Below, piece by piece: positions 1-51,088 of a stretch of 64,000 bases of DNA (the stretch's first letter is position 1; each line of letters starts with the position of its first letter). A program made the position numbers and the translations under genes. The notes below the pieces were generated by a model. That model did no database searches, was not told the origin of the DNA, and worked only from the letters and a program-made list of their open reading frames with translations. The stretch is from assembly GCA_030407315.1 (NCBI GenBank), contig JALQPE010001976.1, positions 82,301 through 146,300 on the forward strand, in the 5' to 3' direction. Source of the stretch: Asparagopsis taxiformis (taxonomy: Eukaryota > Rhodophyta > Florideophyceae > Bonnemaisoniales > Bonnemaisoniaceae).

Positions 1-14
1 GTGCACCTGCGCAG

Positions 15-1892
15 ATGGAAATATCCGCAGCAGTGCCAAACAATGGCAGCGAGGATATAGAAGAGGATAGTCTGGAGCCACAGAGGAAGAAGGCTAGGCT
101 GGAGCGCGGTGGTGGAGAGGACGATAATGCGGCGGTTGCTAGCGAAACAGCAACAAGAGAAGGTGCGGCCGAGGATGACGCTATGGAGGTTGACACTGTA
201 TCGCCTACAGAAGCACCGCTCGTTGACGTCGGAAAGGAATCCAAGCCGGAATATGTCACCAAGCTGGAAGCTGTGATGGGGCGTTACATTCACACTGTGA
301 ATTGTGACGCCACTGATGTAGCCAAAGAGGTGGAGGACAAAATTAGTTTCCTGGAAGATGGCGTGTTGGAGGACAGTGTTCAGCTTGTGCTCACTGATCC
401 TCCATTCAACACGAGGCGGGAAGGCGGCAGAGAAAACTCGGAGTACGATATTCTGGAGCCGGAAGAGTTGGCGAGTGTTGCGTGTGAAATAGTTCGAGTT
501 CTTCGGCCTGGCGGTCATGCTCTAATCTATTCCAGCGTGCGCCAACTCGTGGCATGGATGGATGCAATCAGAAATGCCGAGCCTGGCAAGATGATTGTGG
601 ACAGTGTTCCAGTCGTGCTATCTCGCCGACCACACAGCTTTACGTCCAATCCATCGACGAAAACGTGCACACTGCATAATATGCACGATTTCGTTATCCA
701 TGCGTATAAGCGGGGGAAGGGTATGGCTGCATACGATATGGTGGATTACAGGTTGCACAATCCGGACATATCGAGGCACCCTGGGTTCACCAACGCGATT
801 GACAACGTTCCGAGGTTGTCGGCTGGTGAAGCTCAATACGATGGGCAGAACAACCGACTGCGCCATGAGCAGAAGGCGTTGACCACTCTTCGTGAGCTTC
901 TGGAACGATTTTCGAAGCAGAACGATATCGTGATGGATTTCTTCTCGGGAACATACAGCACAGCCATAGCGTGTATGACGTTGAGGGATGGTACGTATCG
1001 TCGGTTCATTGGGTGTGAGAAGGAAAAAAGGTGCCACGATGCATCGCAGGAGTGGATACTGCATGCTTTCGTCAGTGAGGTGAAAGCCGGGCGATATGGG
1101 GGGATCTTGCAGCGTGAGGTGGAGAGTATTCTTGGGGACGAGTCGGTACCGGTCACAGGAAAAGCTCCAAGGCTTCGTCAGAAGCACATCTCAGATGCAC
1201 CAGAAGGTTTACCTGCTGTGACAGCATTGCCGAACCATCTGCTTGTGTTCGTTGCGTCAATGAAGAAGGACGGTTCTATGCTTCACAGATTGAGCGGGGT
1301 GCCTATGGACCAGTGGCCGGCCGAGGACATGCACTCGTTTTGGAGCATAGACCCGGACGCGATTCTGGCTGCTGATGCCGCATTCTACGGTGTCTATGTT
1401 TCGCAATCGGAGGTAAGAGGTGGTGGGTTTGGCGTATTCGCGGCGAAGAAACTGAAGAAGGGGACGGTCATTGGCTGGTACAACGGGACGATTTTCTATG
1501 CGAAGATTCGAGACTCGGAACCGCAGAGATCAGTGATGTACGGCCCGGAAGGATTTGGGTGCACAGGACAGAGGTTCCAGGACTACAACATGGAATTGGA
1601 AACCACGTACATAGGGAGGGGTGCACCTGTTCGGAAGGTCTGGCTCGTTCCAGCGGTCTATAATTGTACCAGCTACCTCAATGATTGTCGGGTCATTGAC
1701 GGAACGGAGAAAGCGACCGAGGTGAGTCGAACACAGTCAGCCGAGTTTCGACAAGGCGATGCCATAGACAAACCGGACTTTGCTTCGAATATCAAGAATC
1801 CCCATGCTGTCAAGGTCGTTCTGACCAGAGACGTTGAAGCTGATGAGGAGATATTTGCTGACTATGGTAGAAAATATTGGCCAGCTAACTGA
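15..1892 (+). CDS. Beta-class DNA methyltransferase fused to a C-terminal SET domain
   Basis: The 625-aa protein starts at the first ATG visible, only 14 bases into the window, so an earlier start or exon cannot be excluded. Residues 1-80 are acidic and disordered with a basic patch (QRKKARLE) like a nuclear signal. An amino-methyltransferase follows: catalytic motif DPPF at residues 128-131, LRPGG at 163-167, and an SAM-binding motif I (DFFSGTYST) at 308-316. The order motif IV, target region, motif I is that of beta-class N6-adenine/N4-cytosine methyltransferases. A SET domain occupies about 468-618: RGGGFGVFA at the start, a divergent SYLNDC in place of the usual NH-S-C, and EIFADYG at the end. 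The known family roles are DNA amino-methylation and protein-lysine methylation; activity of either half here is not shown. It is the only plus-strand gene of DT1 and is followed by palindrome arrays shared with the other cargo genes. Confidence 0.82.
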   Translation: MEISAAVPNNGSEDIEEDSLEPQRKKARLERGGGEDDNAAVASETATREGAAEDDAMEVDTVSPTEAPLVDVGKESKPEYVTKLEAVMGRYIHTVNCDATDVAKEVEDKISFLEDGVLEDSVQLVLTDPPFNTRREGGRENSEYDILEPEELASVACEIVRVLRPGGHALIYSSVRQLVAWMDAIRNAEPGKMIVDSVPVVLSRRPHSFTSNPSTKTCTLHNMHDFVIHAYKRGKGMAAYDMVDYRLHNPDISRHPGFTNAIDNVPRLSAGEAQYDGQNNRLRHEQKALTTLRELLERFSKQNDIVMDFFSGTYSTAIACMTLRDGTYRRFIGCEKEKRCHDASQEWILHAFVSEVKAGRYGGILQREVESILGDESVPVTGKAPRLRQKHISDAPEGLPAVTALPNHLLVFVASMKKDGSMLHRLSGVPMDQWPAEDMHSFWSIDPDAILAADAAFYGVYVSQSEVRGGGFGVFAAKKLKKGTVIGWYNGTIFYAKIRDSEPQRSVMYGPEGFGCTGQRFQDYNMELETTYIGRGAPVRKVWLVPAVYNCTSYLNDCRVIDGTEKATEVSRTQSAEFRQGDAIDKPDFASNIKNPHAVKVVLTRDVEADEEIFADYGRKYWPAN

Positions 1893-2197
1893 GCTACTTT
1901 GATAGATTTGAGTAAACACGCATTGACAGAGACAATAGACTGTGCATCATCTTCCAAGAGCGCTAGATATTATAGACTACACTACAACAATCGTGACATG
2001 ACTGCAGGAAGGCATCTGCGGCCTGGAGTGCAAACTATCCACTTTTCAACTGCTATACCTATGGATACGAAAGGGAGAGAAACTAGAAAGATGTGAGTGC
2101 GAAATTGTGTAGCAACGCAGCATGTAGAACACCAGTAACAGAGCGATGTAGGAGAAGCAGTCACCCCATTACAGTGCGGGCCGTTTACCGGGGATGC
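1893..2197. other. 3' flank of the methyltransferase-SET gene
   Basis: About 300 bases of A/T-leaning DNA with no credible gene. The last part carries the conserved lead-in to a palindrome array (CCGTTTACCGGGGATGCT), which also precedes arrays elsewhere in DT1 and DT2. No polyadenylation signal could be assigned with confidence. Confidence 0.6.
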
Positions 2198-2598
2198 TGA
2201 CAGCAAAGTCATCGTTACGATGACTTTGCTGTAAGAAAACAAATCATTACAGCAGCCATGATTTCTTTACCGGGTAAAAAAATTGTGGCCGCTGTAATGA
2301 AACGTTTTCTTACAGCAAAGTCATCGTAACGATGACTTTGCTGTAAGAAAGCAAAACATTACAGCGGCCACAATTTTTTACCCGGTAAAATTTCTTGCTG
2401 ATTTTTTACCCGGTAAAAAATTCTTTGGCCACTGCAAGGAAACGGTTCCTTACAGCAAAGTCATCGTTACGATGACTTTGCTGTAAGAAAACGTTTCATT
2501 ACAGCGGCCACAATTTTTTTACCCGGTAAAGAAATCGTGGCTGCTGTAATGATTTGTTTTCTTACAGCAAAGTCATCGTAACGATGACTTTGCTGTAA
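2198..2598. repeat. Palindrome array 1 (four 37-nt palindromes)
   Basis: Copies of a 37-nt palindrome lie at 2198-2234, 2310-2346, 2450-2486 and 2562-2598. Each has the 18-nt half-site TTACAGCAAAGTCATCGT, one central A or T, and the exact reverse complement. The first copy has TG for TT at its outer edge. Spacers of about 63-103 bases contain a second small palindrome, TTTACCCGGTAAA, and inverted ATTACAGYGGCCA motifs. The array sits between the methyltransferase-SET gene and the first ParB-dioxygenase gene. Confidence 0.95.
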
Positions 2599-2628
2599 GG
2601 AACCCTGGTAAACGGCTTCAGCTGTAAG

Positions 2629-2706
2629 CAGCAGGGAGTTTCGTCCTTCTCCCTTCTTGGTAAAGGTACCTTTACCAAGATGGGAGAAGGACGAAACTCC
2701 CTGCTG
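2629..2706. repeat. 78-bp near-perfect palindrome
   Basis: Two 39-base arms meet at GGTACC, centred between 2667 and 2668, with a single mismatched pair (CCCTTC against GAtGGG). The outer ends are CAGCAGGGAGTTTCG and its complement. The left arm also occurs, without the right arm, after the second array near 3511-3547, so the second arm looks like an inverted copy made next to the first. Confidence 0.93.
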
Positions 2707-3190
2707 TCTCACATGAGAAGCGAAGTGTGAAGTAGGGAACATCACGGGAGGATGGTTTGGACGGCTGTTGGTCGCAAAATCTACTCCTTGTGCCGTGAGC
2801 CACAGCGACCATATGGTACCTGTGCCTCACGGCATAAAATATATATTCAACCCGCCCGGGCGGGAACCGGCGCCGGTTCCGGTGCACTATAGTCGTCAAT
2901 AAGTAGGACTCTAGCTACTCACTATACAACTATAATCGTAAGGTAGGATAGCCTAAGATCGTAGTACGGAAGAGACGGATGGGAGGGTGTGTGTAGAGGA
3001 AAATTAAGGCGGCAGTACGAGTAGCCTATCGTGGTAATAGACGAGTATTTCATTGCGAGAGGGGGCGTGAGGGGGGAAACGAAAGGCGTCAGTCGTCACC
3101 AGAGAGGCTGGGATGCTGAAGGCGGAGTAGAGAAATGGGGGAGAGGGTGAAGCCAGACTGCTTACAGCTTTGGCAGTTCCGGCGGGGTGC
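2707..3190. other. Intergenic module with twin palindromes
   Basis: No gene seen. At 2851-2864 and 2863-2880 two perfect palindromes overlap by two bases (CCCGCCCGGGCGGG and GGAACCGGCGCCGGTTCC), GC-rich islands in A/T-leaning DNA. The text around 2740-2830 and 3100-3190 recurs in diverged form in DT2 (about 26220-26560, 27640-27960 and 28690-29030), so this is a repeated inter-array module of the element family. Confidence 0.65.
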
Positions 3191-3479
3191 TGACAGCAAA
3201 GTCATCGTTACGATGACTTTGCTGTAAGAAAACAAATCATTACAGCAGCCATGATTTCTTTACCGGGTAAAAAAATTGTGGCCGCTGTAATGAAACGTTT
3301 TCTTACAGCAAAGTCATCGTAACGATGACTTTGCTGTAAGAAAGCAAAACATTACAGCGGCCACAATTTTTTACCCGGTAAAATTTCTTGCTGATTTTTT
3401 ACCCGGTAAAAAATTCTTCGGCCACTGCAAGGAAACGGTTCCTTACAGCAAAGTCATCGTTACGATGACTTTGCTGTAA
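3191..3479. repeat. Palindrome array 2 (three 37-nt palindromes)
   Basis: Copies at 3191-3227, 3303-3339 and 3443-3479. Palindromes and spacers match array 1 almost base for base, minus one spacer-palindrome unit, and the downstream GTAAACGGCTTCGGCTGTAAGCAG matches too. The two arrays are therefore a local duplication about 990 bases apart, with loss of one unit. Confidence 0.95.
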
Positions 3480-3984
3480 GGAACCCTGGTAAACGGCTTC
3501 GGCTGTAAGCAGCAGGGAGTTTCGTCCTTCTCTCATCCTGGTAAAGGTAAGAAGCGAAGTTTGAAGTCGGGTAAATTGCTCAGCAAAGGTCTGTACGGCT
3601 GTGAGCAGCTCTCAGGAGTATTTTACCTCACGTGGTCTCTGTTCAGGTTATACCCTGTATATATATAGGTAGCCTAGTGTAGGTGGGAAGATAGACGAAA
3701 ATTCTACAAATAATTTATCACAGTGACGGCTCTCGTAGTCGAAATCTGCGCGTTGTCAAGGGTTGAAACTAGTCTCCCCCTACGGCCTAGCTAGTAAAAT
3801 CATATAACGTTGTAGACTAATATTAAAAAGTAGCAAGCAATCTGCTGAGTAGCACTAAACTATGAGATGAAGGACAGATGTATAGATGAGAACTGAAAAA
3901 TGGGCTAAGGTAACAATGTTGAGATGAGAAAGACAGAACTTTATAGCAGGGAACAGTAGTATAGGTTTTAATACTTCTGATATG
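3480..3984. other. 3' flank of the first ParB-dioxygenase gene
   Basis: A/T-leaning noncoding DNA. The section 3650-3980 recurs, inverted and diverged, after the related pseudogene in DT2 (25325-25600), so it is part of the conserved 3' region of that gene and probably carries its transcript end. No separate gene is seen. Confidence 0.6.
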
Positions 3985-6900
3985 CTATCTATTGCTCCTA
4001 TCGTACTTGTAATATTCGACGGTGTGGATGTGGTCCGTGAGGACGTCCTTCTCCGTCTTCAAGTAGATGTGGCCGCGCGTGGGCAGGCCATAGACTAACT
4101 TCTCGCCTGCAGGAAGATCTCCTCGGCTGAAGCCGACCCCGTAATGGTAAAGGTCACCGCGACCAACCAATACGGAATAGGGTGGCACCCAAAAGATGAG
4201 AGGGGGAACCTTCCACATATCGGCGCCCGGACTGGCCAGGCATACATGACTATAAGGGGCAACTACTATAGAGAACCCATCGGCTCCGCTCGACATCATG
4301 AAATATGATGGAGACGTGGTAGGACTTCCAACACTATTCGTCGCTACCTTGAAGTCCGTGTGCCCATCCTGGTCCGCAGCCCCATCTGCTGTAAGAAGCA
4401 GCCGCAATCCTGTCTTCGGGAAGAAGACAGGATCCTCACCCTCCATTCCCAACTTCAAGAACTCCGCACAAACACCAAGAGCAAGCTCTGCCACCAACTT
4501 GTTCTTATACATCTCCAAATTCCCCTCCTCCAACTTGTCGCACAACTCACGCCGCGGCAGAGAGAGGCGCCCACGACCACCATCGATGCGGTCCTTCGCA
4601 TCACCCACGTTGTGGATGAACTGCCACGGCGAAGGATCGAAGCCGGGCTTTGCGAAAGCTGGCGGCTCGTCCTGTGGCTCCCTGTCGTCATCGTTAGAAT
4701 CAGACTGCTGGGAGGGTTTTTCAACCTCCTCAACCAGCGGGAACTGCCTAGCGAAGTGACCGAACAACTCATGCGTCGCATTACCAGCCGTGGACGATGC
4801 CAACAGGCCTTCCATAACAATAACCCCCAAGTTTTCCAACAATGCCTTCTTCACCGCAAAGTACCTGTCCACCACCGTATCCTCAGCACCCGGCGATGCA
4901 GCTGCCTGGAATGCTGCCGCCCTCATTTCCGCCCGAACCGTCTCCACCGTCGTACTTTCCATATAGTACTTCATCCGGCTGCCAGACGCAATTGCGCTGG
5001 GGAGAACGGCGGCCACATTCTCATCGACGATGCTGTCGGGAATGGGATTCTCCTGGGCGTCGTCGAACTGGAGAACCGGCTCCCGAGAGCGACCTCGGGA
5101 AGCCGACTTGGATTTCTTTGACGACGACTTTGATGAAGTCTCACCGAGCCTTCTCTTTTTGGTAGAAGGCTCGGGCGTCGCAGAAGCGGCTTCCAAGTTA
5201 CGCTTCCCGAGGATGGAGTTTTCACCCGCATCCTCGGGGGCGCTCTCCAGCTCGACGACCTCCACAGCACCACCCGCCGTTCCACCACGACCGGAACGAC
5301 TCGCTTGCAGGCGGGTACTCCTTCTGGGCATCACTTTCCTCCCAGAAGTTTCCACTCCGGGCGGTGCAGAATCACTGACTTCAATGACATCTTCGTCAGG
5401 ATCTGCACCGCCCTTCGCACTGCTGCCCTCGACCACATTCTCGGGAGTAGGGCCCTCCGTCGAAATCCTCGCAACCGTCTTCTGTCCAACCCCACCGGAT
5501 GGTGAAGGGACGAAGCTGTCATCGCTGGAGCTTCCCGAACTGCTAGCAGATGCAGAACGGGAAGCTTCGACAGCGGGGGCCGGAGCAGCAGGGTGCTGCT
5601 CGGCAGCCGGAGTCGCAGGCTCAGGCTGCGAAGCCGGTGAGACCTGCTCCTGCGCGGCTTGGACAGGACGGTTGGGGGTACCAGTCCCGGCGTGGGAAAC
5701 TGGACCAGAGCGTTCGCTGCCATCCTGGGGACCACGCGCAGTCGGCTTGACCGGGGTCACCGCAGGGGAGGATGCAGACACGGCAGGGGTAGAGACAGGA
5801 ACAGGGGCAACCTCGGAATTGCTGGAAGATTCCAGTTGAGGTGGTGGGGGCAAAGGAATGGAGGATGAAGGGATGGGCAAGGAATTGGAAGAGGAAGGGA
5901 TGGGGGCATCATCACCACATGTGGCTGGGAGCGCAGCATGTGGGATGTCTGGGTACATCGCGTGAAAGCGTTTCCGCATTTGCATGTCGCGGTACCCAGT
6001 GACGCGCAGGAGCATTTTCCTGGCGTCCTTCCCGAAGACAGACTTCTTACGGGGAAAAATATTTTCGTAACTGTAACCATCGGGGGGGCCTTCCTTGGGA
6101 CGGAAGTCTGCCCAGCACCCCTTCTTGGGGACCATCTGAGCAAGAACTTCGACAACGCGCGAGCGAATGTCGAAGCTCTTGCTCGGGTCACCCCGGCTGG
6201 GAATTGACCCATCCAGCATCCTCAACACATCCGACACGTTCCAGTACTCGGCCACCTCCTTCACGTACCCGAAGATTTCCAACAAACCAGCAATCCATTC
6301 CTGCCCAATGGTACCAACCGAGTACGGTTTCAGCCCGGCCGACCGACGGCTACAAGTGTAGCGCGCCGTCATCTCCAGGATGAAACACTTCTGCACATCC
6401 GGAGCACTCCTGAACGACCCATTGAACAACAAGTTCACCGTACAACCAGCCAGATCCTCGGTCGAAGAGAACTGCACGAACTCCGGCCTGTTCGGGATGC
6501 TCGACCAGTACTTGAAAGCAGGGCTTTCAATGGTCTTGAACCCTCGCGCGATCGAGACGTAGCGCATGAGCTGTCTCGGACGAATCCAGCTCAGCGCTTT
6601 CCGTTCTTTTATGTATTGAACGGTCGGCTCGATCTTCTTCTTTCCCAGGCGGTGGATATTGATGAACTCCATCACAGAGCACACATTGTCAGCAACTGTT
6701 ACCTCGCTGACATTGTGGGTGTGGAAGTTCATCAGCCGTGAAAGCGGGAGTACTTCTTCGGAGCAGAAGACATCCCGGCCAAGCCGAGTCGGTGGGAGGA
6801 GAAAGTCGACTGGAATAGTTCCAAAGCGACGGTAGATGTCAGACTTGACAAACTCCTCCCACTCTGGACTGTCCTTCGCAGGAGCAGGTCCAGCCGACTC

Positions 6901-7632
6901 GAGAATGGCCTTCAACGCGGTCACTCGGTGAGATCCATCGACATATTGCAGTCGTACTTTTGCATTGGAATCAATCACCTCGCAGACGGACACGCGTGAA
7001 GCAATCACGGAAAATCCCTGAGTGAGAAACGTTTTCTTCAACTCATCAACGCGATGCGGCCTGACCACCCTGGACACGACTGCCGGAGGAGAAACATCCA
7101 GGGGGGAAATGAAGACTGGAATGTTTCGGCAGCTCTCCGGACTTATGTCGTAGTCCACATCCACCGGGATGGGCACTGTGCCAGGGTAGGCCAGCCTGGT
7201 GCTGCGGAGAGGCTTGTTCGGTACGATGTCACGAGCGTTGTGATCATCGACCTTCTCCGCATCCTCTGCCAAGTCGCTGCCGGACGCGATGATCATGTCC
7301 GGAGCAGGCGAGCTGGGCAGAGGAGCACCAGATCCCTCGACGGCTGGCGCCGCTTCGGCAGATTGAGCCGGAAGCGGAGTTGCGGGAACGCCAGCGTCGA
7401 TTGTCGGGACAACCGCGGGATCGGAAGCGGAAGGGGGGGAGGGGACGGGCTTAGGTGCTGGGCTGAGCTGGGTCAGCGCTGCAGCAGCTTCGCAAACGTC
7501 CATGGGGACAGGGGGGGCCAGAGAAGGAGAAGGAGAGGGAGAAGGAGAGGGAGAAGGAGTGGGAGAATCGTTGTCACGGCGGCTGGCAGAGCGCACCTGG
7601 CGGTCGAAAGCGTTGGGGGATTGTTGAGCCAT
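3985..7632 (-). CDS. ParB-like domain protein with C-terminal 2OG-Fe(II) dioxygenase-like domain, paralog 1
   Basis: The 1,215-aa protein uses the ATG at 7632 (MAQQSP); the open frame runs upstream only through a non-ATG pyrimidine-rich leader. After a Ser/Pro-rich N-terminus with an SP dipeptide run, a ParB/sulfiredoxin-fold-like domain covers about residues 170-330, with the signature VDGSHRVTAL (VDGSHR at 231-236). A region shared with paralog 2 follows (YWSSIP; EMTA), then a long disordered stretch with a basic nuclear-type patch (KKRRLG), then a C-terminal domain with HTD (H1091, D1093), GDLYHYG (H1163) and RGHIYL (R1186). The HxD...H...R layout and the GD-xx-H-x-G context suggest a double-stranded beta-helix dioxygenase. 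Oxidation of DNA or protein is not shown. It lies between palindrome arrays in a transposon that also carries a DNA methyltransferase, which makes a modified base or histone a reasonable substrate guess. Confidence 0.78.
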   Translation of the reverse strand: MAQQSPNAFDRQVRSASRRDNDSPTPSPSPSPSPSPSLAPPVPMDVCEAAAALTQLSPAPKPVPSPPSASDPAVVPTIDAGVPATPLPAQSAEAAPAVEGSGAPLPSSPAPDMIIASGSDLAEDAEKVDDHNARDIVPNKPLRSTRLAYPGTVPIPVDVDYDISPESCRNIPVFISPLDVSPPAVVSRVVRPHRVDELKKTFLTQGFSVIASRVSVCEVIDSNAKVRLQYVDGSHRVTALKAILESAGPAPAKDSPEWEEFVKSDIYRRFGTIPVDFLLPPTRLGRDVFCSEEVLPLSRLMNFHTHNVSEVTVADNVCSVMEFINIHRLGKKKIEPTVQYIKERKALSWIRPRQLMRYVSIARGFKTIESPAFKYWSSIPNRPEFVQFSSTEDLAGCTVNLLFNGSFRSAPDVQKCFILEMTARYTCSRRSAGLKPYSVGTIGQEWIAGLLEIFGYVKEVAEYWNVSDVLRMLDGSIPSRGDPSKSFDIRSRVVEVLAQMVPKKGCWADFRPKEGPPDGYSYENIFPRKKSVFGKDARKMLLRVTGYRDMQMRKRFHAMYPDIPHAALPATCGDDAPIPSSSNSLPIPSSSIPLPPPPQLESSSNSEVAPVPVSTPAVSASSPAVTPVKPTARGPQDGSERSGPVSHAGTGTPNRPVQAAQEQVSPASQPEPATPAAEQHPAAPAPAVEASRSASASSSGSSSDDSFVPSPSGGVGQKTVARISTEGPTPENVVEGSSAKGGADPDEDVIEVSDSAPPGVETSGRKVMPRRSTRLQASRSGRGGTAGGAVEVVELESAPEDAGENSILGKRNLEAASATPEPSTKKRRLGETSSKSSSKKSKSASRGRSREPVLQFDDAQENPIPDSIVDENVAAVLPSAIASGSRMKYYMESTTVETVRAEMRAAAFQAAASPGAEDTVVDRYFAVKKALLENLGVIVMEGLLASSTAGNATHELFGHFARQFPLVEEVEKPSQQSDSNDDDREPQDEPPAFAKPGFDPSPWQFIHNVGDAKDRIDGGRGRLSLPRRELCDKLEEGNLEMYKNKLVAELALGVCAEFLKLGMEGEDPVFFPKTGLRLLLTADGAADQDGHTDFKVATNSVGSPTTSPSYFMMSSGADGFSIVVAPYSHVCLASPGADMWKVPPLIFWVPPYSVLVGRGDLYHYGVGFSRGDLPAGEKLVYGLPTRGHIYLKTEKDVLTDHIHTVEYYKYDRSNR

Positions 7633-7866
7633 TGCTTTGGTGAGTGATTGACAAACGAAGAGTGAAAGATTGAGAAAGAGAGAAGAAGATCTGAACGACA
7701 AGCTGTTTTGCTGCGTAAGCTGAGTAAGATAGGCGAAACTTAGAGATCTGACATATTCCTATTAGTATACACCCTGGTAATGATATTCAGCGGTTGACCA
7801 ATCCGAACCTTCCACATCACTTTTCGTTGTACGACAATTACAGCTCAGGCAGTTTACCAAGGATCC
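7633..7866. promoter_or_regulatory. Upstream region of paralog 1
   Basis: On the minus strand the 70 bases before the ATG at 7632 are rich in TTCTTC/CTCTTTCTC pyrimidine tracts, typical of a leader. Further upstream is A/T-rich DNA with no clear TATA box, then palindrome array 3. Any promoter must lie between the array and the gene; this is inference from position. Confidence 0.35.
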
Positions 7867-8130
7867 TTACAGCAAAGCCATCGTTACGATGACTTTGCTG
7901 TAAGGAAACGTTTCATTACAGAGGCCAGGAATTTTTTTACCGGGTAAAGAAATCATGGCCACTGTAATGTTTTGTTTCCTGACAGCAAAGTCATCGTTAC
8001 GATGACTTTGCTGTAAGAAAACGTTTTCATTACAGCGGCCAGGAATTTTTTTACCGGGTAAAGAAATCATGGCCACTGTAATGAAACCTTTCCTTACAGC
8101 AAAGTCATCGTAACGATGACTTTGCTGTAA
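7867..8130. repeat. Palindrome array 3 (three 37-nt palindromes)
   Basis: Copies at 7867-7903 (one substitution, GCC for GTC), 7980-8016 (TG for TT at its edge) and 8094-8130. Spacers carry TTTACCGGGTAAA and the GGCCA/TGGCC pair. The array ends with CATCCCTGGTAAACTGC, the standard array exit seen in DT2. Confidence 0.94.
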
Positions 8131-8731
8131 GCATCCCTGGTAAACTGCTCCATCTGTAAGCCGTTGGTCTCAACCCTCGCTCTCGTTTCTGTTGTCCTCC
8201 TTCATCATCTCCACCTACCTTCCCCCTACACACCACCTCTCTAATGTCACTCTACCCACCCTTTGGTGCATGAAATATTTTCTTACCACTGCCATAGTCT
8301 ACACATACTGCTGCCTTCATACCTCTGCATGCCTACCCTTCAATCTTTCTTCCATCTTTCTCTACCGTGCTAGGCTTAGACCATGCTCTGTGCACATCTG
8401 ACTTACTTAATATCATTGTATAGCTAGAAACTAGAATAATAATTACATCACTAGAGTACACTGCAAATGTTAGTAACTATGGTTGGTGTGGTACACAACA
8501 CCCTAACTCCTTCATGAGTAAACTTTGCGCACAGAACCGTTCAATACCAGGTAGTGCAGCCAGCGCAAACCAGGCTTGCACGACGCAGAGTGCTCCCCAG
8601 AGCCGTCAACAGTCGTCCAAACCATCGTTGTACGATGTTCCCGGCTCCACACTTCCCTTCTCACCCTTCCCAGGGTGGGAGACGGACGAAACTCCCAACC
8701 GCTTACAGCCGAAGCCGTTTACCCGGGATGC
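8131..8731. other. Inter-array module between paralogs 1 and 2
   Basis: No gene seen. The text from 8140 to 8400 is the diverged reverse complement of 27060-27310 in DT2, showing a shared ancestral intergenic segment. The stretch 8480-8730 holds another copy of the module that leads into an array (CCGTTTACCCGGGATGCTTACAG). Confidence 0.65.
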
Positions 8732-8957
8732 TTACAGCAAAGTCATCGTTACGATGACTTTGCTGTAAGGAAAGGTTTGATTACAGTGGTGAGAAAATTT
8801 TACCGGGTAAAAAAATCAGCAAGAATTTTTTACCCGGTAAAAAATTGTGGCCGCTGTAATGATTTGATTTCTTACAGCAAAGTCATCGTTACGATGACTT
8901 TGCTGTAAGAAATCAAATCATTACAGCAAAGTCATCGTAACGATGACTTTGCTGTCA
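8732..8957. repeat. Palindrome array 4 (three 37-nt palindromes)
   Basis: Copies at 8732-8768, 8872-8908 and 8921-8957. The last two are separated by only 12 bases, the closest spacing in the window, and the last ends TCA instead of TAA. Spacers include TTTACCGGGTAAA and TTTACCCGGTAAA. Confidence 0.94.
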
Positions 8958-9208: not shown

Positions 9209-11949
9209 TCAGATATCTAAACGCTCCCAGTAGTTGACATTGAAGGGAGGCTGTAGCAACTTCTCCCTGGAAGTTCGCAGTGATAGATGGGACCGGATAG
9301 GATGCTGGTACCTCACCGAAGAACGACCCTCCGCGAATCCCATTCCTCCGTGATACACGTCCGTTCGGCATACAAGCAGGGAATACGGTGGGATGCGCAC
9401 GTTCGTCACTGGCACGCGGTACTTGTCTTTCGCTGGATGACTTAGGCACACATGGCTGAACTTGGCGATACGAATGATGAACCCATCCGCACCAGCAGCC
9501 ATCATGAAATATGATGGCGAGTTGAGAGGACCAGTTCCAGTTCCCTCACGGACGGGAACATCGGTATGCATAAGTTGCTCCTGACTACCTTCTGCGGTCA
9601 AAATCAGACGAAGACCCGTTTCTGGAAAGACCACCGCTTCTTCTCTTCCAAACCCGAGCTTCAGGTTCTCCGCACAAATCGCCTTACCTAGCTCCAGAAT
9701 CAGCTTGTTCCTGTACTGCCGCGCGCTTTCTTGCTCAAGGTCATCGCAGATGCTTTTCCGGTCCGTCTTCAATACACCAGTGCTGTCTTTCGGTCGAAGT
9801 GGTTTCCACGTGTTCTTCTGACTTGCACTCGAGCCACTTGCAGTACCTTGGAATGTGCTGGCCATCTGTGTGAATAACTCGGGCTAGTGCTGTAAGTTTC
9901 TGGTGTCCTGATTCGAAGTTTCAATATCACAGAGCGGTTCTGCGCATCTCCAGCCTGTTGTCCAGGCGTGTCTATGTCCATGCGACCACTATTGTCCAAG
10001 TTGATATCCAGACTTTGCGTATCGCCGCTTTGTTTCCTTCCCTGAGGAAGATCTTCTCTGACAATCCTTCCCGGCGAATTATCCCTGGCACGACTTTCCC
10101 GCTCTGCCCTTGAAGCTGAAAGACGTTCCTGTTCTTTTTGGAGAACAGCAAGACGTTCTGCTTCCCTCTTCTCAGCTGCTGCAAGACGCGTGGCAGGACG
10201 TTCCTGTCCTCCCTCTTTTGCTGCGGCAGGACGGTCTTCTGCTTCTTTCGGGGTGCTCAGAGGTGCCTCTTCTATTGCTTTCGTCGCGACAGCAGGAATC
10301 ACTTCTTCAGCCACCACATTTGGAGTAATTTCCTGTTCTTCCTCCACAACAGCAGAAACTTCCTGCTCTGCTTGGGCTTCGGCAGATACTCCTTCTTCTG
10401 CTTGAACAGGACCAGAAGTTTCCACAGTTTCCTTCTCTGTAGAATTATTTCCCTGTTCTGCGGCAGTAGGTGCTTCTTCGTCTTCTGCTTTGGCGCCATC
10501 AACAAGTGCTTTTTCTATTTCTCCGGGGGTCATGCGATTCCGTTCCCTCTCCTCCTCCGCTTTCGTCTCCTGCATTGCCTTTGTCCCGGTAGCATATTCC
10601 AGTTTGTCGTAAAAACTGTTTGTAAACATCCCGTTCTTGGTTCTCAGACTGCTACTGTCTACCACGTCGTCATGAAAGTCGACAAGGACGAATACAATGC
10701 GCTCTCCAATGCGATGATCATTATCCCCGACCTCCTTCGCGTTTTCTGCTGCCAAATCCGTTCGCACGAATTCCTCCATCGTTGCAGAGTTCAACCACTT
10801 GCGGACGACCTCTGCCATATCATAGATGGCCAACAGAGCCAGTAGCCAAGTGCGCATCGTGAACGGACTTCCGCTTCCGATATTTCTGACAAGTCCTCTC
10901 TTCCTCCTCATCCTTGTCCACGACGCTGTCATCTCGAGCACAAACCACTGGAACCACTCCTTATCGCGCGTCCCGCGTCCGTCCGTGCCATTGCGGAATA
11001 TTGCGTTATTGACAAGATCGAGCACGCACCCGTACATATCGGCAGAGTCAATTCGAGAAAAGTCCGGATCTCTTCCCTCGGTTCTTGCATCCTCGATTTC
11101 TCTGTTCCTATCCAAAGCATTGTAAACGCTAGGGATAGAGCTCCAGTACACGAAAGCAACGCTGTCTGTGCGATTGAACCCCTTCGCAATGTTGATGTAC
11201 TGCCTATACGAGTTCTCCGAACGGTTCCTGTCGGACGGCAGAATATAGCTCACTTCTTTCAGAATAGGAATAAGCCGGACAACAGGAAGATCCATCTGGT
11301 TGGAAAACCTGAGAAACTCTATGACCGCACACACATTGTCGGCAATGCTCACAGAAGCGACATCGTGAGTTTGTATATTGGCTTCGAGAGACAGTTTCAG
11401 AACCTCCAGCGCATCGAAAATTAGACGCCCGTTCGGCGCAATCAACTGTTGTACCCAAACCAATTCCAAGGAATCCCTGTTCTTTCCTGAGTACTTCTCC
11501 AGGCATAGTTGCAGAGCAGCTATGCGATGAGAGCCATCGATGCAGTAAAACTCGTCTCCTTCGTTATCTTCCATTTTGCAGACTGTAATCATAGTTCCAG
11601 TGGTAGAGAAACCTCTATCCATGAAAATGCTGGCCAGTTCGTTTACACGACCCGGTCGCACCAAACGGGAGGTCACTGTCGGAAATTTCACTTTGCGAGG
11701 ATCAACTTGCACTTTAGAAGAGCTGTACTGAGCAATAGTGATGCTTTTCTCTTCAGCAGAAGGAGAATTGCTCTTCTCCGCTGTAGTATTCATGATACTA
11801 TTGTCTCCCATTGTAATCCCTGCAATCTCAGTTCGTTCAATCGGTTCTCTGTTCAAATGTTGTGTAGACGATGAAATCCACAATTGTGGTACCTCCGAGT
11901 GCGCTTCCCGTCTCTCAGCTTCCTCTCTTATACTGTCCGGACAAGACAT
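9209..11949 (-). CDS. ParB-like domain protein with C-terminal dioxygenase-like domain, paralog 2 (one predicted intron)
   Basis: Exon 1 is 11949-9931 and exon 2 is 9865-9209; removing a predicted 65-bp GT-AG intron (9866-9930) gives 891 aa. The start is the ATG at 11949 (MSCPDS). A ParB-like domain has IDGSHRIAAL (IDGSHR at 137-142). The middle shares YWSSIP and EMTA blocks with paralog 1. Residues about 460-660 are a charged, Glu/Ala-rich region likely to be coiled or disordered. The C-terminal domain has HTD (H773, D775), VYHGGMG (H845) and R864. The spacing between the two histidines is 72 residues in both paralogs, which supports a real metal site. Without splicing, the two halves are in different frames, so a frameshifted gene is the alternative. 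It is shorter than paralog 1 because the Ser/Pro-rich parts are reduced. Confidence 0.75.
9866..9930 (-). other. Predicted 65-bp intron in paralog 2
   Basis: On the minus strand the segment begins GTGATATTG right after codon TCT and ends ATTCACACAG right before ATG GCC. Splicing joins the upstream frame to the conserved dioxygenase frame at phase 0. Because homology to paralog 1 resumes just inside the second frame, a junction must exist here; a GT-AG intron is the simplest explanation. Confidence 0.6.
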
Positions 11950-12649
11950 TCCCTACCTACGTTCAGTCCTGATGAACCTTACGCTGCACCCGCTCAGCAC
12001 CTCTGACTCTACCTGATCCTGATACCTCCACAAAGCGTTTAGCCCTTTCCATCAATCTACACCTAATAGTATGTACCTCTAGCGCATATAATGCAATCGA
12101 ACCCGTTTACCTCACCACGTCAATTATCATTCATATTCCAACAACCTATTTCATCCACACTCTCCACCTCGCTTCTTCTTCCGTACCATTGATTCCTATC
12201 AATCGATTCTACGTGAGTTTTATACATTTACTACGATCCACCTCTCCTACAAGTCTGAAAAATTCATTTCTACACTAACTTTTGCTACTCACAAATGAAC
12301 GGTTCCCGTGCAGGCCACTGCTTGAATTTCTTCCTATTGGCGTACTCGGCTGCAAAGGATTCATAGACTATTTAAACGGTGATCATATAAATGGTTTTCA
12401 ATGTGCTCCAATGGACAATACACCAAAGAACATCAATATGAATTCATTTCAACTACCTATTCACTACTGCGATTCAGTTTTCTTGCATACCAAATCTCAT
12501 TGCGTTCCTACCCTAGTCGATTCAAAATGCTTCCTCTTCGTCAGTTGATCAATATTCCTTATTCCTTACAACGAGCAGGTCCTCTGGACATCCTAAAGTT
12601 GGTTACTTAACCTTAACTATCGATGAATTTGCTGTAATGAAACGTTTTC
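11950..12649. other. Intergenic region upstream of paralog 2
   Basis: About 700 bases of A/T-leaning DNA. The promoter of paralog 2 must lie here on the minus strand, but no TATA box or other site is convincing. Short open frames (for example 12282-12548) show no protein-like composition and are not called. Confidence 0.5.
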
Positions 12650-13163
12650 TTACAGCAAAGTCATCGTTACGATGACTTTGCTGTAAGAAAAGAAAACATT
12701 ACAGCAGCCATGATTTCTTTACCGGGTAAAAAAATTGTGGCCGCTGTAATGAAACGTTTTCTTACAGCAAAGTCATCGTTACGATGACTTTGCTGTAAGA
12801 AAAGAAAACATTACAGTAGCCATGATTTCTTTACCGGGTAAAAAATTGTGGCCGCTGTAATGAAACGTTTTCTTACAGCAAAGTCATCGTAACGATGACT
12901 TTGCTGTAAGAAAGCAAATCATTACAGCGGCCACAATTTTTTTACCCGGTAAAATTTCTTGCTGATTTTTTACCCGGTAAAAAATTCTTCGGCCACTGCA
13001 AGGAAACGGTTCCTTACAGCAAAGTCATCGTTACGATGACTTTGCTGTAAGAAAGCAAATCATTACAGCTGCCACGATTTTTTTACCCGGTAAAACATTC
13101 TTGGCCACTGTAATGGAAACGTTTTCTTACAGCAAAGTCATCGTAACGATGACTTTGCTGTAA
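12650..13163. repeat. Palindrome array 5 (five 37-nt palindromes)
   Basis: The largest array: copies at 12650-12686, 12762-12798, 12873-12909, 13014-13050 and 13127-13163. The central base alternates (T, T, A, T, A), so copies occur in both orientations. Spacers of 74-104 bases carry TTTACCSGGTAAA and GGCCA/TGGCC motifs. It separates the transposase from the ParB-dioxygenase genes. Confidence 0.95.
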
Positions 13164-13284
13164 GCATACCTCCCTCCATCCTCTCAGATCCTCTCCCCAC
13201 TACTTTGCACCAATCCACCACCGCCCTAGAGTGTACAATTCATATGTGATGCATCTGGTTATTCATTTTATTCTTCCCTAAAAA

Positions 13285-16200
13285 TCATGCAGCCCTCGGT
13301 GGAAATCCGTCTCGCCTACATAGTGCATATATCTCTCCACCCTCCAGCAGTCCGGGTCCGTGCCTTACCTCCCTCATGTTCTCATCATATTCGCATACAC
13401 TCCCATTGCAATAGTGCATACCAAACACCTCAGTGACTCCCTCACTCATCTCCACAATTACTGTTCGTCGCCTCTCTTCGACCTTGAACACTCCTTCATC
13501 AGTTTTTTGCAAACCCAGGCAAACTCCATAAGCTGTACCTTGCTCATCTCTCGCACTCTCGTTCCTCAGGATAAAGAACGCTAGAACAATAAAAACCGCG
13601 GTTCATAATTAATTCTTCCCCGCATTATCTCTGATGTGAGACGAGACGCCGGGTACAGAATCGCTTGTGAAGTTGCACCATCCTCACATTTCATCTGTTC
13701 AGGGCAAACAGCATGGATGATAGCTCCTGATTCTAGAGAGCCAGACCTCTGCACTGTTTTCCTTCCCCACTCTGTCGTAGTGCTTCTAGAAACTCTTCTC
13801 ACCCATTCGGCATACTTTCCACACCCGCTTGTTCCGCTTCCGTACCTTTCGGTAAAGAACCGTTTGAAAACACCTACAGCACCCTCTGCCATATCACATT
13901 TTCCATTCATGTACTCCTTGACCTCGTCAATAGATATACCTCCATGCCCTCTCCACGTCACAATTTCACCATCCGCCGACAATATCTTTCCTCGACGCTG
14001 GGAGAGAAGCTGGAGAACCGGTTCCTGGAAGCAGTTTTTCACTACCTCGTCTTCCACATCTATTTCTCTCCCTAGCTCCTGTGAAAGAACGTTGACCATT
14101 TGAGAGCATTCGGACGAGGACCAATGTTGTGGCTCCATGCCGATTTCGCGCAAAACAATGGCCACTCTCGTCTGCCAGTCATCCGCAAGAACTAATTCCA
14201 GCGCTGAAAGCTGTTCGCTTTGGTGATTGGACATTCTCACACCTTTCTTCAGCGGCTGATGCATCCGTTCGAATATAAGCTCCTGCACGTGCTTCACAGA
14301 GCCGTAGGCAGGAAGCGTATGAACACAAAACTCGACAAGACGATGAACATTAGGCTTGTCCAAATGTGCTCCTGCTCCCTTCACTTTCCGACAATACTCA
14401 TTCAACGTCTCCACGTAGTCTACAGTTCTTCCCAGAATGTATTCATTCCTGCCACCTTCTCCGTCAGCCGTCTCTACTTCATGGGGACCGTCTTTCCACC
14501 ATACGGGCATGAAACTAATACACGAAACCAGCTTCTGAAACATCACTACTAGTTTGACGGCCCCATCAAATTTTTCACGATGACCTTCCCCTTTCCCATC
14601 CATCATTCGAGCTGCGTTTTCGAATGCCATAGGTGCTATCAGAAGCACACTGAATATGTCACTCATGTTCATGGAAAGCAGATTGTTGGTTCCAAATAAA
14701 CGGTTCTGCCTTCCCATCCTGAACTTCTTCAGAGCGCCCAGAATTTGCAATTCAGCTACCTCTCGAATTCGTGGGCTGGCAGCTGAAATACAAGCGTTCA
14801 GTACATCTTGTGCCAGTCCAGACAATAGATGGTCAGGTGCTATCACTGCGGAACGGTACGGGTCAAAAATTGCTGGGACAACTGAAACTCCGTTTTCCGT
14901 CTTCGGTACTTCTTCCTGCACTGCTTCCAAGGAAGTGCTCAGGACATGAAATGGTAAATCTTCCCCTTCTTCTGCAGCCAGTCCGAGAGTGCGAAGCTGG
15001 GTTTCTGTGGCATCCTTACGTGTCGATGCATTCCGATACTTGCTCCTGGCATGCGTCGATGTTTGCCCGTTCACTACCGAAGTGTATGCATTCTTCGTGC
15101 CACCAGTACTGCTCAGGTCATATTTGCGGAAACTGCAGATGTGGCACGGAGAGTTTGATGTGTGTCCAAGAACATCCAGGGTATGTGAAACTGCAGGATA
15201 GTCTCCAATGCTCCCCACTGGGTCTAGAAATACCACAATATCTTCTCCCTCTGCATTTTTCGTTGGGAAACCCTCTGTGCTTCCTCGCACTATATCTTGA
15301 ACGATATATCGCAATACACAATTTGTGGACACTCCCGGAGGTGGCAAACCAATCACTCGAACCGCTTGGTAGCTTCCCCTTTTCCGAGGCGGTAGATTGA
15401 GAGGTAACATATAGCATCCACCAAAACTTCCCTTCCTGCTTGTGAATGGTTCAAAGTCATCCGTGTAAAGGAGAAATCGGTAAACAAAGTAGTTTCGACC
15501 ATCCTCCAGCTTTCCCCAACATGGTGCATCTTCTCGCGGAGACGCTGGGTGCCATTGCGACCTGTGGTCTCCGAAACCATCCGAGAACACCCCTGAAACA
15601 CGAATTTCTTCATAGTTGGGGCTTCCTAGTCTATCGGGCGGGTTTCTGGCTTCAGCAAAGCTCGCGCCCGGTGAAAAGCAAAGTAACATGGTGGATGCTT
15701 CTCCGACCTGCTCTTTCAAATACCTGTTCACCAATACGACGTGTGGAACAATATCACCCTCTTCCATTCCAATTGGTAATAGAACGGTTATCACGTCCCC
15801 AGCTCGTGTTCCTTTTCCCTTGGCTCCTGCTCCGATTACACATTGCGATATCGCTCGCAGAGCATGCTGCCTCTCCCATTCCAATAGATGTGACATTCGC
15901 GGCTGCAGATATTTTTCGACATGCACATCATGCTCACCGTCGTGTCGAGCCTCATAGGTAACTATGGTCCTAGCATGAAGTTCCCACAACGACGTAACCG
16001 CCACTCTTCTCCTCTTCGGTTTCCCACCATCTCTGTCATTCTTCCTGAACCCTTTTGCTCTTTCGATGACGGCAACCTGACGAGCTCCTGGATGACATCG
16101 GATTCGAATTGCTGTTCCATCAGGTACATAAATGTGCTTCAAACCCTTTTTCCCATCGCTGTCAATGGGAACAACTGCTGTGCGAACGAATGGGTCGCTC

Positions 16201-17087
16201 AAAACACCCCTCCTGCACTTTGCAATGAACGAATCTTCAATGCTGCACTCTGCGGTTGATTTTTCTCCTTCCGAGCTTCGATTGTTCGCATCACTGCGGA
16301 ATGCTTTAAAGATTGGTCGAGTCTGGACATCTTTCAGAGCCCATGTGCTTGGGAGTACAATACGAACTTTCGCCATTCCTCCACAATTGTCTCTGTCATC
16401 TGTTGTTCCACGGGTTCCTACTGCACCTCGATGCTGTGCAGCTCTTGCTCCGCTCTTTCGAAGGTCTATCGGAAACTCGATGTCACAGCTCTTTGCATAG
16501 CAATGTTTCCTCAAGAATGGTAGTATCTTCTGTCGCATCACAGAGTCCGACGGGACGTGCTCACTTGGATCTCTGCGGAAATTCATTCCGAACAGGGTAC
16601 CTTCATAGTGGGCTCTTGTCATTCTTTGAGTTCCACTCAGCTGAAGAGCCCCATACATCGCAGGCCATTGTAGTAATGCCTTGAAATCACCACATGCTTC
16701 ATCCCCAGCATTTCGGTCTATCGGGCCTCCAGTTGAAATGGAATCAGAACCTCGTCCGGTTGCTTCTTCCGATTCCATTAGCGTGCTCGATGCTACGTAG
16801 ATGTCACTTCCAGCTTCATCGTTGTTGCTGTACACATCAATACAACCTTCTATTGTGTCACCCATAGGGATTGGGGACTCCAATAGGTCATCTGTGGTAC
16901 ACTCACGTCGTAGCTCATTACCTCTCGGGATTTCTTTGTTCATGCAGGCTGCATCACTGCTGCGGATTTCTCCCTGCAGTTTCCCAGGAAGCTGTTTACT
17001 GGGACTGGCCACATTGAGTGAATCGAATCTCGCCTTTGTCCTACGACTTGTGGTTTTCTTTCGAATAGGAGTCCGTCTCGGAGCCAT
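13285..17087 (-). CDS. Plavaka/CACTA-like transposase (one predicted intron)
   Basis: Exon 1 is 17087-13688 and exon 2 is 13580-13285, giving 1,231 aa. The N-terminus is very basic (APRRTPIRKKTTSRRTKAR). The core resembles KDZ/Plavaka/Tnp2 transposases: YTDDFEPFTSRKGSFGG (D543/D544), then PLNLPPRKRGSYQAVRVIGLP, then GDYPAVSHTLDVLGH (D629) with the SPCHIC zinc-type pair (642-651), and APDHLLSGLAQDV (D752, H753), which sits where the third acidic motif is expected. Assignment is from motif order, not a search. It is adjacent to the subterminal repeats of DT1 and reads away from the end at 19731. The exon-2 part is a clean 98-codon extension (EGVFKVEERRRTVIVEMSEG) reached only by splicing. It is the obvious candidate to move DT1; no inactivating break is visible in it. 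Confidence 0.7.
13581..13687 (-). other. Predicted 107-bp intron in the transposase gene
   Basis: Minus-strand donor AAAT|GTGAGG at 13687 and acceptor TTTTTATTGTTCTAG|CG at 13581, with a textbook pyrimidine tract. Splicing replaces a short unremarkable tail ending in a stop at the acceptor by an in-frame, protein-like C-terminal extension ending at 13285. Read-through without splicing gives a 1,168-aa protein instead. Confidence 0.6.
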
Positions 17088-18050
17088 CTTGATGTTTTTG
17101 TTCTTTTCTTCTTCGCTCAGTTTTGTGGCATAGAATACAACTCTAAACTTCTATGACATGACTACTATCTCAATACAGTACTACTACTTTTAACCGTTAC
17201 GAAACCTTTCCAGGCTTTCATTCGATCCAATGAACTGGTTCACCACAATGCTTTGCCCTATGCTCATTGCTTTATGCACATTGATTGCTATTTCATCCGG
17301 ACTCAACATCGTTTTGCTATCTTGTATCGCATCCCCTAACCACAAACCCAGCCAAGATGTATCCATTTCCGGAAAACGGCCGTTTATTTCGCAGTGATGC
17401 TCTAGGCACTAATACTGAATCTGATTTTCTCATACACGTACTTCCTACTCGTATACTCTACCATTTTCGGCCCTATTTACAAGTTGAAAGCACAATCTCT
17501 CGTTGAATCGTACTCGGTGTGATATCTTAAATTAGCATAAATTTATATATTGCAATGCAGATTCACTGCTCGCTTGCAACATGAAAATTATAAAATTTCT
17601 CCCACACTGCTGTTTCCTAGCCGCCCACATCCACGTGGCCCGCTTTGACTGCCTGCCAAGTGTGCTCAGAGCATGCAATGACGTCATCGATATATACCGT
17701 CCAAATCATCACTGGAAGCGCGGACTCCTCGTCCAGGAAAGTGCGCCATTTTTCCTACTCCTCGCCTCCCCCTTTCCAGTAGGCCCCATATGCTAGTGTT
17801 TTTCCTATATTTCTGTAGTGATGACGTCATTATAGACTTGAGAAGGCGGTAGAAGATACAATAATTTTGCGCCTGTTCTGCCAGGTCATGTGCTTCAAAG
17901 CGTAATTCGCACCCTAGGTATCGTTTTTCTGGGCCTCCCATCGCACCGCTCCGTTTCAAATTCATCCCTCTATTGTTCTCCTACACGTCATTTCCGCCCG
18001 CAGAGTGCTACTTAAACAACAGATTCTGGAAATCCCTGTTTCCATCTTCG

Positions 18051-18183
18051 TATCCGTCGGAAACAAAACAACAACTCTGGCTGTGGAAGCAGTACAGATC
18101 ATCTATACTGCTTCCAAAGCGTAAGTTGTAGATCATCAATACTGCTTCCAAAGCCAAAGTTGTTGCTTTGTCTCCGACGGATA
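18051..18183. repeat. Imperfect inverted repeat inside the type-A end
   Basis: Arms at about 18051-18094 and 18140-18183 begin and end with TATCCGTCGGA / TCCGACGGATA and include GGAAGCAGTA / TACTGCTTCC. At the matching place in the DT2 arm there is instead a different, perfect palindrome (22031-22064). Confidence 0.85.
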
Positions 18184-18890
18184 TGAACCATGATGGTACG
18201 TTTCCACAACTCACGCCACTAACCCAGTTTTCTATTCGTTTTCTCTTTCTCAGGTTTCCAGTCGGTGAGTGTTCCACTTCTACTTTCATTTATCTTTCTC
18301 TCTTACCACTTCTCCACTACTTTTCTTTTCTGCCTGTGAGTACATATCTCAATTTGGGATGCAATGGTATTTGTTAAGGTACGTTAGTCTCCTAATCACC
18401 ATCAATTTCCCTCTCCAATTCAACGTCACTAACTTGTTTCCTTTCTCTACATCATTTTTTCTTCTTCTCTTCATTTCCTAGCTTATTCATGCAACTCAAT
18501 CAGTTGATAGATTTCTAGACTTTTCTAGTAGTTTTAGTTTTACTCGTCGGAATAGTGTTAGTTGTAGTAGCATTTTTAACATAGGGATTGTTTATTCTCA
18601 ATGTAGCCTGCGCAAATAAACAAATCCAGAGTGAAGCTTCCCATATCGCACCCTCTTAGATTGCTACCTATCCTACCGCGTATACCTCTCGCTAGCTCAT
18701 AGTCACTACGAAATAAAAATTCCTAGCCGTACTATTCTGTCCATTCCCATATGAATACCGTCCATGCCCCATCCTCATAGCGCTAGAACTGCCTTCCTCT
18801 ACCCCAGAAAGATGCCCACGACAGCGTGACGCTCCATCTCATCCACCACTCCCAGACACCGAATTTTACTATATCAGGACACTACTTTTA

Positions 18891-19380
18891 CTGTCTCCAG
18901 GTGCTGCCCAGGGCAGCACGAAATACTGTCTCCAGGTGCTGCCCAGGGCAGCACGAAATACTGTCTCCAGGTGCTGCCCAGGGCAGCACGAAATACTGTC
19001 TACAGGTGCTGCCCAGGGCAGCACGAAATACTGTCTCCAGGTGCTGCCCAGGGCAGCACGAAATACTGTCTACAGGTGCTGCCCAGGGCAGCACAAAGTA
19101 CTGTCTACAGGTGCTGCCCAGGGCAGCACGAAATACTGTCTACAGGTGCTGCCCAGGGCAGCACAAAGTACTGTCTACAGGTACTGCCCAGGACAAGGAA
19201 AATCACTGTCTCCAGGTATTGCCCAGGACAGTGAAAATCACTGTCTCCAGGTACTGCCCAGGACAGTGAAAATCACTGTCTCCAGGTACTGCCCAGGACA
19301 GTGAAAATCACTGTCTCCAGGTACTGCCCAGGACAGTGAAAATCACTGTCTCCAGGTACTGCCCAGGACAGTGCACCGTG
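18891..19380. repeat. 35-bp subterminal satellite of DT1, about 14 units
   Basis: Tandem 35-bp units of two types. The first eight or so contain the perfect 19-mer palindrome GTGCTGCCCAGGGCAGCAC flanked by CTGTCTCCAG and AAATA. The last six have GTACTGCCCAGGACAGTG followed by AAAATCA. Multiple copies of a short motif near the ends are the usual transposase-binding arrangement in CACTA elements; binding here is inference. Confidence 0.93.
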
Positions 19381-19731
19381 TTGGTTCCATCTATTGTCCC
19401 AGGCAGCGTATTTCACTATCCGGCCATGTTGCCTTGGCCAATACAAAACACTATCCGCCAACACTGCCCAGTACAGTAAATTACATCATATCCAACTATT
19501 GAATAAATCATTAATTTTTACTGTCTCCATTCACTGCCTCAGACAGTACTGTGAGACAGTGTTTTTTACTGTCTGCAGACAGTGTTCCGTACTGTCTGCC
19601 AGACAGTGCAAATCACTGTCTCCAAGTGTGGCATTAATTTTCATTTGCCGCATAGTGATTTTTACTGTCTCAGACAGTAAAAATCACTGTCTCGCAGTAC
19701 TGTCTGAGGCCCCCTTTTCAACACCGTAGTG

Positions 19732-51003: not shown

Positions 51004-51088
51004 TAGAAGTTGCTACGAGCATAACGACAACCAACGAGGTTGAGCTCTTTTACGTTAACGAAAAGCTACGTGCTACAGACGACGGTCT

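Follow-up and report, generated by a model that had tools for sequence, protein, structure and literature searches.

The question raised by the 64,000-nucleotide stretch of Asparagopsis taxiformis DNA studied here (the window; positions 82301-146300 of contig G000:C1851 in an assembly of 141.5 Mb and 3,156 contigs) is whether its DNA methylase-SET gene, two ParB-dioxygenase-like genes and transposase-like gene are carried by one DNA transposon, and what such a cargo might do for it. A sequence-only reading of the window had proposed one composite element with self-controlled writers and erasers of epigenetic marks. The remainder of the contig was also read, and negative coordinates denote positions left of base 1 of the window (contig position minus 82300). 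The genes belong to a CACTA-type transposon of approximately 25-26 kb, which moves as one unit with all six of its genes (g1 to g6) and three palindrome clusters (Table 1). The window covers the right three quarters of this element, and g1, g2, the left terminus and the N-terminal part of g3 lie outside it.

The single-unit reading follows from the ends of the element, the target duplications, a restored open reading frame (ORF) and the constant spacing of its genes in 14, 20 and 8 gene pairs. The right CACTA end lies where it had been predicted, and the left end that was to match it was found at -6154, with the same 13-nt terminus and an interior of the other type (the two interiors are termed types A and B). 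Between the paired ends at -6154 and 19731 there is no further CACTA end; this includes the interval between the methylase gene and the transposase, the place where the sequence-only reading had said that a left end would speak against it. Other copies with the matching gene order had also been anticipated, and two were found. Copy 1, on the same contig at -58539..-30153, is flanked by a CT/CT target duplication, and its excision in silico together with one CT makes an interrupted transposase ORF read through; by eye, the restored ORF equals the uninterrupted ORF of a second family (family 2) at -25554. This copy is 97.2-99.5% identical to the window copy (blocks >600 bp), lacks 5.0 kb spanning g5 and g6 as well as ~1.3 kb at g2, and has its g3 interrupted by a ~9.8-kb insert. 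The copy on contig C74 (32666-57929, 25,264 bp) has a GC/GC duplication, the identical order of six genes, and 99.4-99.8% identity to the window copy in the four longest blocks. The CACTA...TAGTG termini are those of CACTA/EnSpm elements, and the CT/CT and GC/GC duplications fall within the 2-5 bp range given in PMC12730594 for this CMCT-clade group. An arrangement of unrelated elements lying side by side might be suspected from the crowding of the contig with nested copies and from the window copy itself, which has AA at its left flank and CG at its right instead of the predicted 2-bp CG duplication, a point that counts against the single-unit reading for this one copy. For the family such an arrangement is refuted by further, independent copies that have both ends, target duplications and a constant gene spacing, and we regard it as practically eliminated. 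The insert in g3 of copy 1 (-54872 to -45067) holds unclassified ORFs.

Table 1. Features of the family 1 element represented in the window (window coordinates; L003 coordinates in parentheses)
Feature	Position	Strand	Remarks
Whole element	-6154 to 19731		25,886 bp; paired CACTACGGTGTTG ends; copy 1 and C74 share ends and genes
Left terminus	-6154 (L003:3846)		outside window; CACTA end pairing with right end
g1	-5339..-3726 (L003:4661-6274)	+	537 codons; no Pfam match above cut-off
g2	-3447..-2047 (L003:6553-7953)	-	467 codons; no Pfam match above cut-off
g3	-1575 (L003:8425) to 1892	+	1,155-aa ParB-like + N6/N4 DNA methylase + SET protein
Methylase domain of g3	378..1049	+	Pfam PF01555, E 7.5e-17; residues 126-349 of ORF window 3-1892
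SET domain of g3	1425..1868	+	Pfam PF00856, E 1.3e-6; residues 475-622 of ORF window 3-1892
Palindrome cluster, g3-g4 gap	2198..3479		7 sites
g4	3985..7758	-	ORF of 1,257 codons: ParB-like region + HxD...H...R region
Palindrome cluster, g4-g5 gap	7867..8957		6 sites
g5	9209..11952	-	second ParB + HxD...H...R gene; broken in window copy
Palindrome cluster, g5-g6 gap	12650..13163		5 sites
g6	13581..17150	-	transposase-like, 1,189 codons, CMCT-like motif order
Subterminal tandem array	18889..19371		35-bp unit, 13.8 copies
Right terminus CAACACCGTAGTG	19719-19731		CACTA end

The 13-nt terminus occurs at 922 + 944 = 1,866 sites in the genome, as against 1 + 0 for the reversed control. In the genome-wide protein searches only the best candidates were scored, and the window's own copy is counted among them. 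All 70 scored copies of g3 (best of 3,443 candidates) agree at every one of 629 aa and are free of stops, 62 of them within a 1,186-codon frame; all 39 scored copies of g6 (best of 2,061 candidates) are 100% identical; and the 37 scored copies of g4 (best of 8,106 candidates) are all open, 33 at 100% and four at 97-99%. When the lists of best-scored g3, g4 and g6 copies were crossed, the spacing among the copies listed was 11,695-12,220 bp in 14 g3-g6 pairs, 1,987-2,099 bp in 20 g3-g4 pairs and 5,826-6,350 bp in 8 g4-g6 pairs, with the relative orientation as expected in every pair (a fifteenth g3-g6 pair, at 18,557 bp, was left out because its g6 already had a partner and its g3 was an extra copy nearby). 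For 25 of the 39 listed g6 copies the g3 list offers no partner. C74 accounts for one of these; the expected g3 place precedes the contig start in 14 and lies beyond the contig end in 5, and in the remaining 5 it could be read. Three of these readable places held g3 sequence (100%; 95%, partial; 70-75%). The 14 g3-g6 pairs dispose of the concern that other copies might consistently lack the cargo, but g3 was absent from the expected place in 2 of the 5 transposase copies read (C1549 and C2105), and an 8.1-kb element on contig C4, with both ends in place and 8 palindromes, matches none of the six genes. The cargo is therefore usual, yet not shown for every transposase copy, and gene-less derivatives exist. 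Among the first 100 places listed, opposed ends stand ~8.1 kb apart in four pairs (C4, C23, C101, C116) and ~14.4 kb apart on C19 and C104, a recurrence that suggests abundant shorter derivatives. Contigs C4, C64 and C116 start 1-3 bases from the CACTACGGTGTTG terminus, which indicates that the assembly breaks at element ends.

The first cargo gene, g3, carries the N6_N4_Mtase and SET domains in a single ORF (Pfam scan), as the sequence-only reading had held; the N-terminal part coded left of the window changes the predicted methyltransferase-SET fusion into a ParB-methylase-SET protein, since this region is ParB-like, with a DGAHR motif and PHROG matches to ParB-like partition families. The methylase scores 62.5 bits against PF01555 (cut-off 26.7), matches PHROG DNA methyltransferases at 3.9e-23, and finds the DpnA methylase in a PDB search. 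The SET region scores 29.2 bits against PF00856 (cut-off 22.4), as a lysine methyltransferase domain. We take the DPPF/Y motif of the methylase to point to N6-methyladenine (6mA), and the domain suggests a 6mA writer, with N4-methylcytosine (4mC) possible. A protein database search with g3 gave four matches, one being the query itself (best 7,991 candidates scored). The other three are P0002 (43%), which by eye is almost identical to a broken family 2 gene on the contig; P0003 (JGI; 38%), which has a ParB-like start and a SET region that aligns though Pfam SET is unlisted; and P0004 (31%). Phage matches comprise 4 records of ~25% identity confined to the methylase part, and of 67 pattern matches in IMG/VR none was confirmed as a relative.

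The products of g4 and g5 are 33% identical in their ParB-like halves and 45% identical in their C-terminal halves. HTD, H and R are invariant in all four aligned dioxygenase-like regions, which thus show HxD...H...R, the residue pattern of 2-oxoglutarate-Fe(II) dioxygenases. The two predicted ParB-dioxygenase fusions are thus present with their motif residues, but the second is broken in the window copy, and the name dioxygenase, like the role of eraser, is putative and taken from these residues. A TET/JBP assignment was rejected in profile tests, as none of the four dioxygenase-like members had a Pfam match at E up to 5. In the window copy ~0.5 kb has been deleted from g5, taking the first half of the dioxygenase-like domain and breaking the frame; an intron was considered and rejected because g5 on C74 is a single open frame of 1,087 codons. 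The assignment of the N-terminal halves to ParB/Srx is based on matches to a PHROG ParB-like partition family in 4 of the 6 aligned ParB-like regions (best 6.6e-6) and on DG.HR, which is invariant in 6 of 6. In PDB the ParB profile gave 15 chance-like matches starting at E 0.1, and the g4 query one match at E 0.19. In the protein database g4 found no match (best 7,982 candidates scored), and the ParB-dioxygenase alignment found one, 98% identical and lacking the dioxygenase part (best 7,986 scored). Neither g1 nor g2 has a Pfam match above cut-off; in family 2 there is a relative of g2 at 37% identity.

The transposase-like g6 has no Pfam match at E 0.1. It had been called Plavaka/CACTA-like, and the CACTA half of that name is borne out by the ends and duplications. 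The Plavaka half was rejected by a profile test, as neither g6 nor its family 2 relative matches PF18759, while another ORF of the contig, serving as a control, matches at 3.4e-24. Alignment of g6 with this Plavaka ORF (hhalign) is collinear and weak (probability 3%, E 0.015). We therefore use the label CACTA-type, not Plavaka. The family 2 relative of g6 is 47% identical, and of the motifs looked for in a CMCT-clade DDE transposase, CxxC, D and H/E do not vary between the two families. Family 2 has two copies on the contig, of which the one at -26.3 to -8.3 kb reads transposase, ParB-dioxygenase, ParB-dioxygenase, methylase-SET and g2-like gene, the inverse of the order in the window element, with tblastn pieces 26-46% identical; its methylase-SET gene is split in three pieces, and g1 was not found in this family by tblastn. 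A further methylase-SET ORF (-79147..-75899, L010:853-4098; 1,082 codons, 22% identity, Pfam methylase and SET both matched) adjoins the control Plavaka ORF (-72871 to -69761), and the two possibly represent a third cargo-bearing family. A search for the element ends of these two families, 2 and 3, found none.

The genes are maintained by selection, and their order is conserved in two families. Between the window copy and C74 there are 8 synonymous differences and 1 nonsynonymous (g1, g2, g3, g4 and g6), and between the window copy and copy 1 there are 47 and 55, respectively (g1, g4 and parts of g3 and g6), for a ratio of nonsynonymous to synonymous rates (dN/dS) of ~0.36; the transposase part alone gives 3 synonymous and 6 nonsynonymous against copy 1. 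With the share of nonsynonymous sites assumed to be 0.76 and the kinship of copies ignored, binomial P is 8e-5 for the comparison with C74, and 9e-7 for that with copy 1; the comparison with C74 limited to the non-transposase genes gives 0.004. These data bear on the view that the methylase and dioxygenase-like genes ride along with the element and have no function for it. Gene-less copies with both ends do exist, meaning that the cargo can be dispensable or supplied in trans, but the synonymous excess, the identical intact copies and the gene order kept in family 2 have weakened this view, which we now consider very unlikely.

A shared 37-nt palindrome had been reported in every gap between the genes. 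It is present far above chance, but its 18 sites in the window copy (<=6 mismatches to the palindrome, as for all site calls on the contig) are confined to 3 of 7 gaps, with none in the genes or in the other four gaps. The contig as a whole has 37 sites, every one between family 1 ends, and exact matches to the 33-nt core number 8,325 across the 141-Mb genome, as against 0 for the reversed control. In the corresponding three gaps, family 2 has different palindromes or repeats: CCAAAATAATACCSGGTATTATTTTGG occurs three times at 114-bp spacing in one gap, once plus a partial form in the second, and twice in an imperfect form in the third. An ACCCGGT core is shared, and in family 1 it is part of a smaller palindrome between the 37-mers. 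The repeat is thus family-specific and occupies fixed gaps. At window 8853-8927 the palindrome is free of mismatches over 75 nt (37-base arms and one centre base), and an identical 75-mer is found in copy 1 at -35909.

Our best model, to which we give close to an even chance, is that the element sets its own epigenetic state by self-marking. The ParB-like regions would recruit the enzymes to the DNA of the element, with the palindrome clusters as plausible landing sites, and the methylase would write 6mA (or 4mC) there; the SET domain would add a histone-type lysine mark on the same chromatin and keep the element transcribable; and the ParB-dioxygenases would act by oxidation on silencing marks of the host or on the mark made by the element, which would let the state be reset around transposition. 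In this scheme we infer the base specificity, the SET target, the dioxygenase activity and its substrate, and the recognition of the palindromes by the ParB-like regions. Of the composite element first proposed, the unit stands and its anatomy fits self-controlled writing and erasing, with the eraser identity a matter of motifs. Self-marking is supported because the palindromes sit only in gaps, persist in one gene-less copy (C4) and are replaced in family 2, because the genes are maintained and their order is kept in family 2, and because self-marking by ParB-methylases has been proposed in print (see below). Since 6mA co-locates with H3K4me3 in several eukaryotes (passages of PMC12695648), a paired writer of 6mA and a histone mark is plausible. 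The main rival is that the cargo controls the transposition reaction and not silencing: methylated ends or palindromes would gate transposase binding and couple it to replication, and the dioxygenases would reset the mark. That the cargo and the transposase move together, and that ends and palindromes are retained in a gene-less element (one read), would suit such control, but the palindromes lie in inner gaps and not at the ends, and the SET domain has no clear role in a DNA reaction; we consider this account rather unlikely. Possible, and more doubtful than self-marking as such, is an address-coded system in which the palindrome of each family would be a parS-like address read by a ParB-type module common to the writer (ParB-methylase-SET) and the erasers (ParB-dioxygenases), so that the element and its gene-less relatives would gain and lose marks in trans, and the divergence of address and reader would go hand in hand between families.

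Several results weigh against the self-marking model. The dioxygenase-like profile has no Pfam or PDB match, and its PHROG matches are weak, unnamed or unrelated; AlphaFold2 models of the region have a low mean pLDDT (predicted local distance difference test), 38.0 with one sequence and 33.7 with two. The ParB-like regions match no Pfam ParB model, and one g5-type region gives a sub-cut-off match to the unrelated Pfam family SNRNP27. Not all copies have the full gene set: on C74 g2, g5 and g6 are open and g1, g3 and g4 each lie in two frames (true damage or assembly error), and g5 of the window copy is broken. Sequence-nonspecific nucleases are, moreover, frequent among ParB-superfamily domains (passages of PMC5512222). 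The ParB-like domains might be nucleases or NTPases in a system of self/non-self discrimination, in which element DNA would be modified and unmodified competitor or host DNA nicked. A bacterial ParB-methylase cited in the same passages nicks nonspecifically, and the ParB-like regions have weak matches to DndB (E 0.18) and GmrSD_N (E 0.054), families linked to DNA modification. Such discrimination leaves the SET and dioxygenase-like halves unexplained, and we judge it quite unlikely, self-marking remaining the preferred model.

Among known systems, the closest in domain content are the accessory proteins of algal Sola-1 transposons (PMC12477816), which likewise join a ParB-like domain and an N4/N6 methylase in one protein on a large eukaryotic DNA transposon and for which marking of the own transposon has been proposed; the likeness to g3 is one of domain content. 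Those elements belong to the Sola-1 superfamily, and the passages of that paper describe no SET domain, dioxygenase partner or palindrome clusters. The same paper cites giant EnSpm/CACTA elements of red algae that bear several accessory genes (Petroll et al. 2025, Bostrychia); these may be very similar. Fungal EnSpm/Plavaka elements with TET/JBP (passages of PMC12730594) are CMCT-clade transposons with a dioxygenase thought to remove DNA marks; the ends of PlavakaB are CATCA and ParB is not mentioned in those passages, and the dioxygenase-like region of the window element is without a TET/JBP profile match. Phytophthora HarbingerS and MuDR elements, cited there, carry a SET histone-methylase gene as here, but belong to other superfamilies, and SET is not described as fused to a DNA methylase. 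In the Plavaka giant repeats of Amoebidium (PMC11244446) the transposase adjoins groups of intron-poor genes that extend over up to 50 kb; many of the genes encode tyrosine recombinases, and the passages mention neither ParB nor SET. ParB is also fused to an adenine methylase in a protein of Bacillus cereus and in polyvalent proteins of phages (passages of PMC5512222), in a prokaryotic setting without SET. The claim that the combination had not been described must accordingly be narrowed: ParB-methylases on algal transposons are already published, and the SET fusion, the ParB-dioxygenase pair and the palindrome clusters on a CACTA element are apparently new, as none of the three appeared in the passages covered by full-text searches of a literature without most subscription journals.

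If the self-marking model is true, the transposon carries both halves of an epigenetic cycle together with a sequence address, and the joint action of base methylation, histone methylation and mark oxidation in keeping a parasite active becomes directly testable. With identical palindromes in the thousands and identical open copies in the dozens, a single genome offers unusual statistical power for mapping of marks, and the ParB fusions could be used as targeting modules.

Two further features of the window lie to the right of the element. At window 20792-45295 two more pairs of family 1 ends are interleaved, and not nested as expected: 20792 pairs with 35882 (both with TC flanks) and 26985 with 45295 (both with TA), a 2-bp agreement that may be due to chance. 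Positions 36846-42579 and 51059-58549 hold inverted copies of long ORFs with near-identical starts, a pair that may represent a retroelement.

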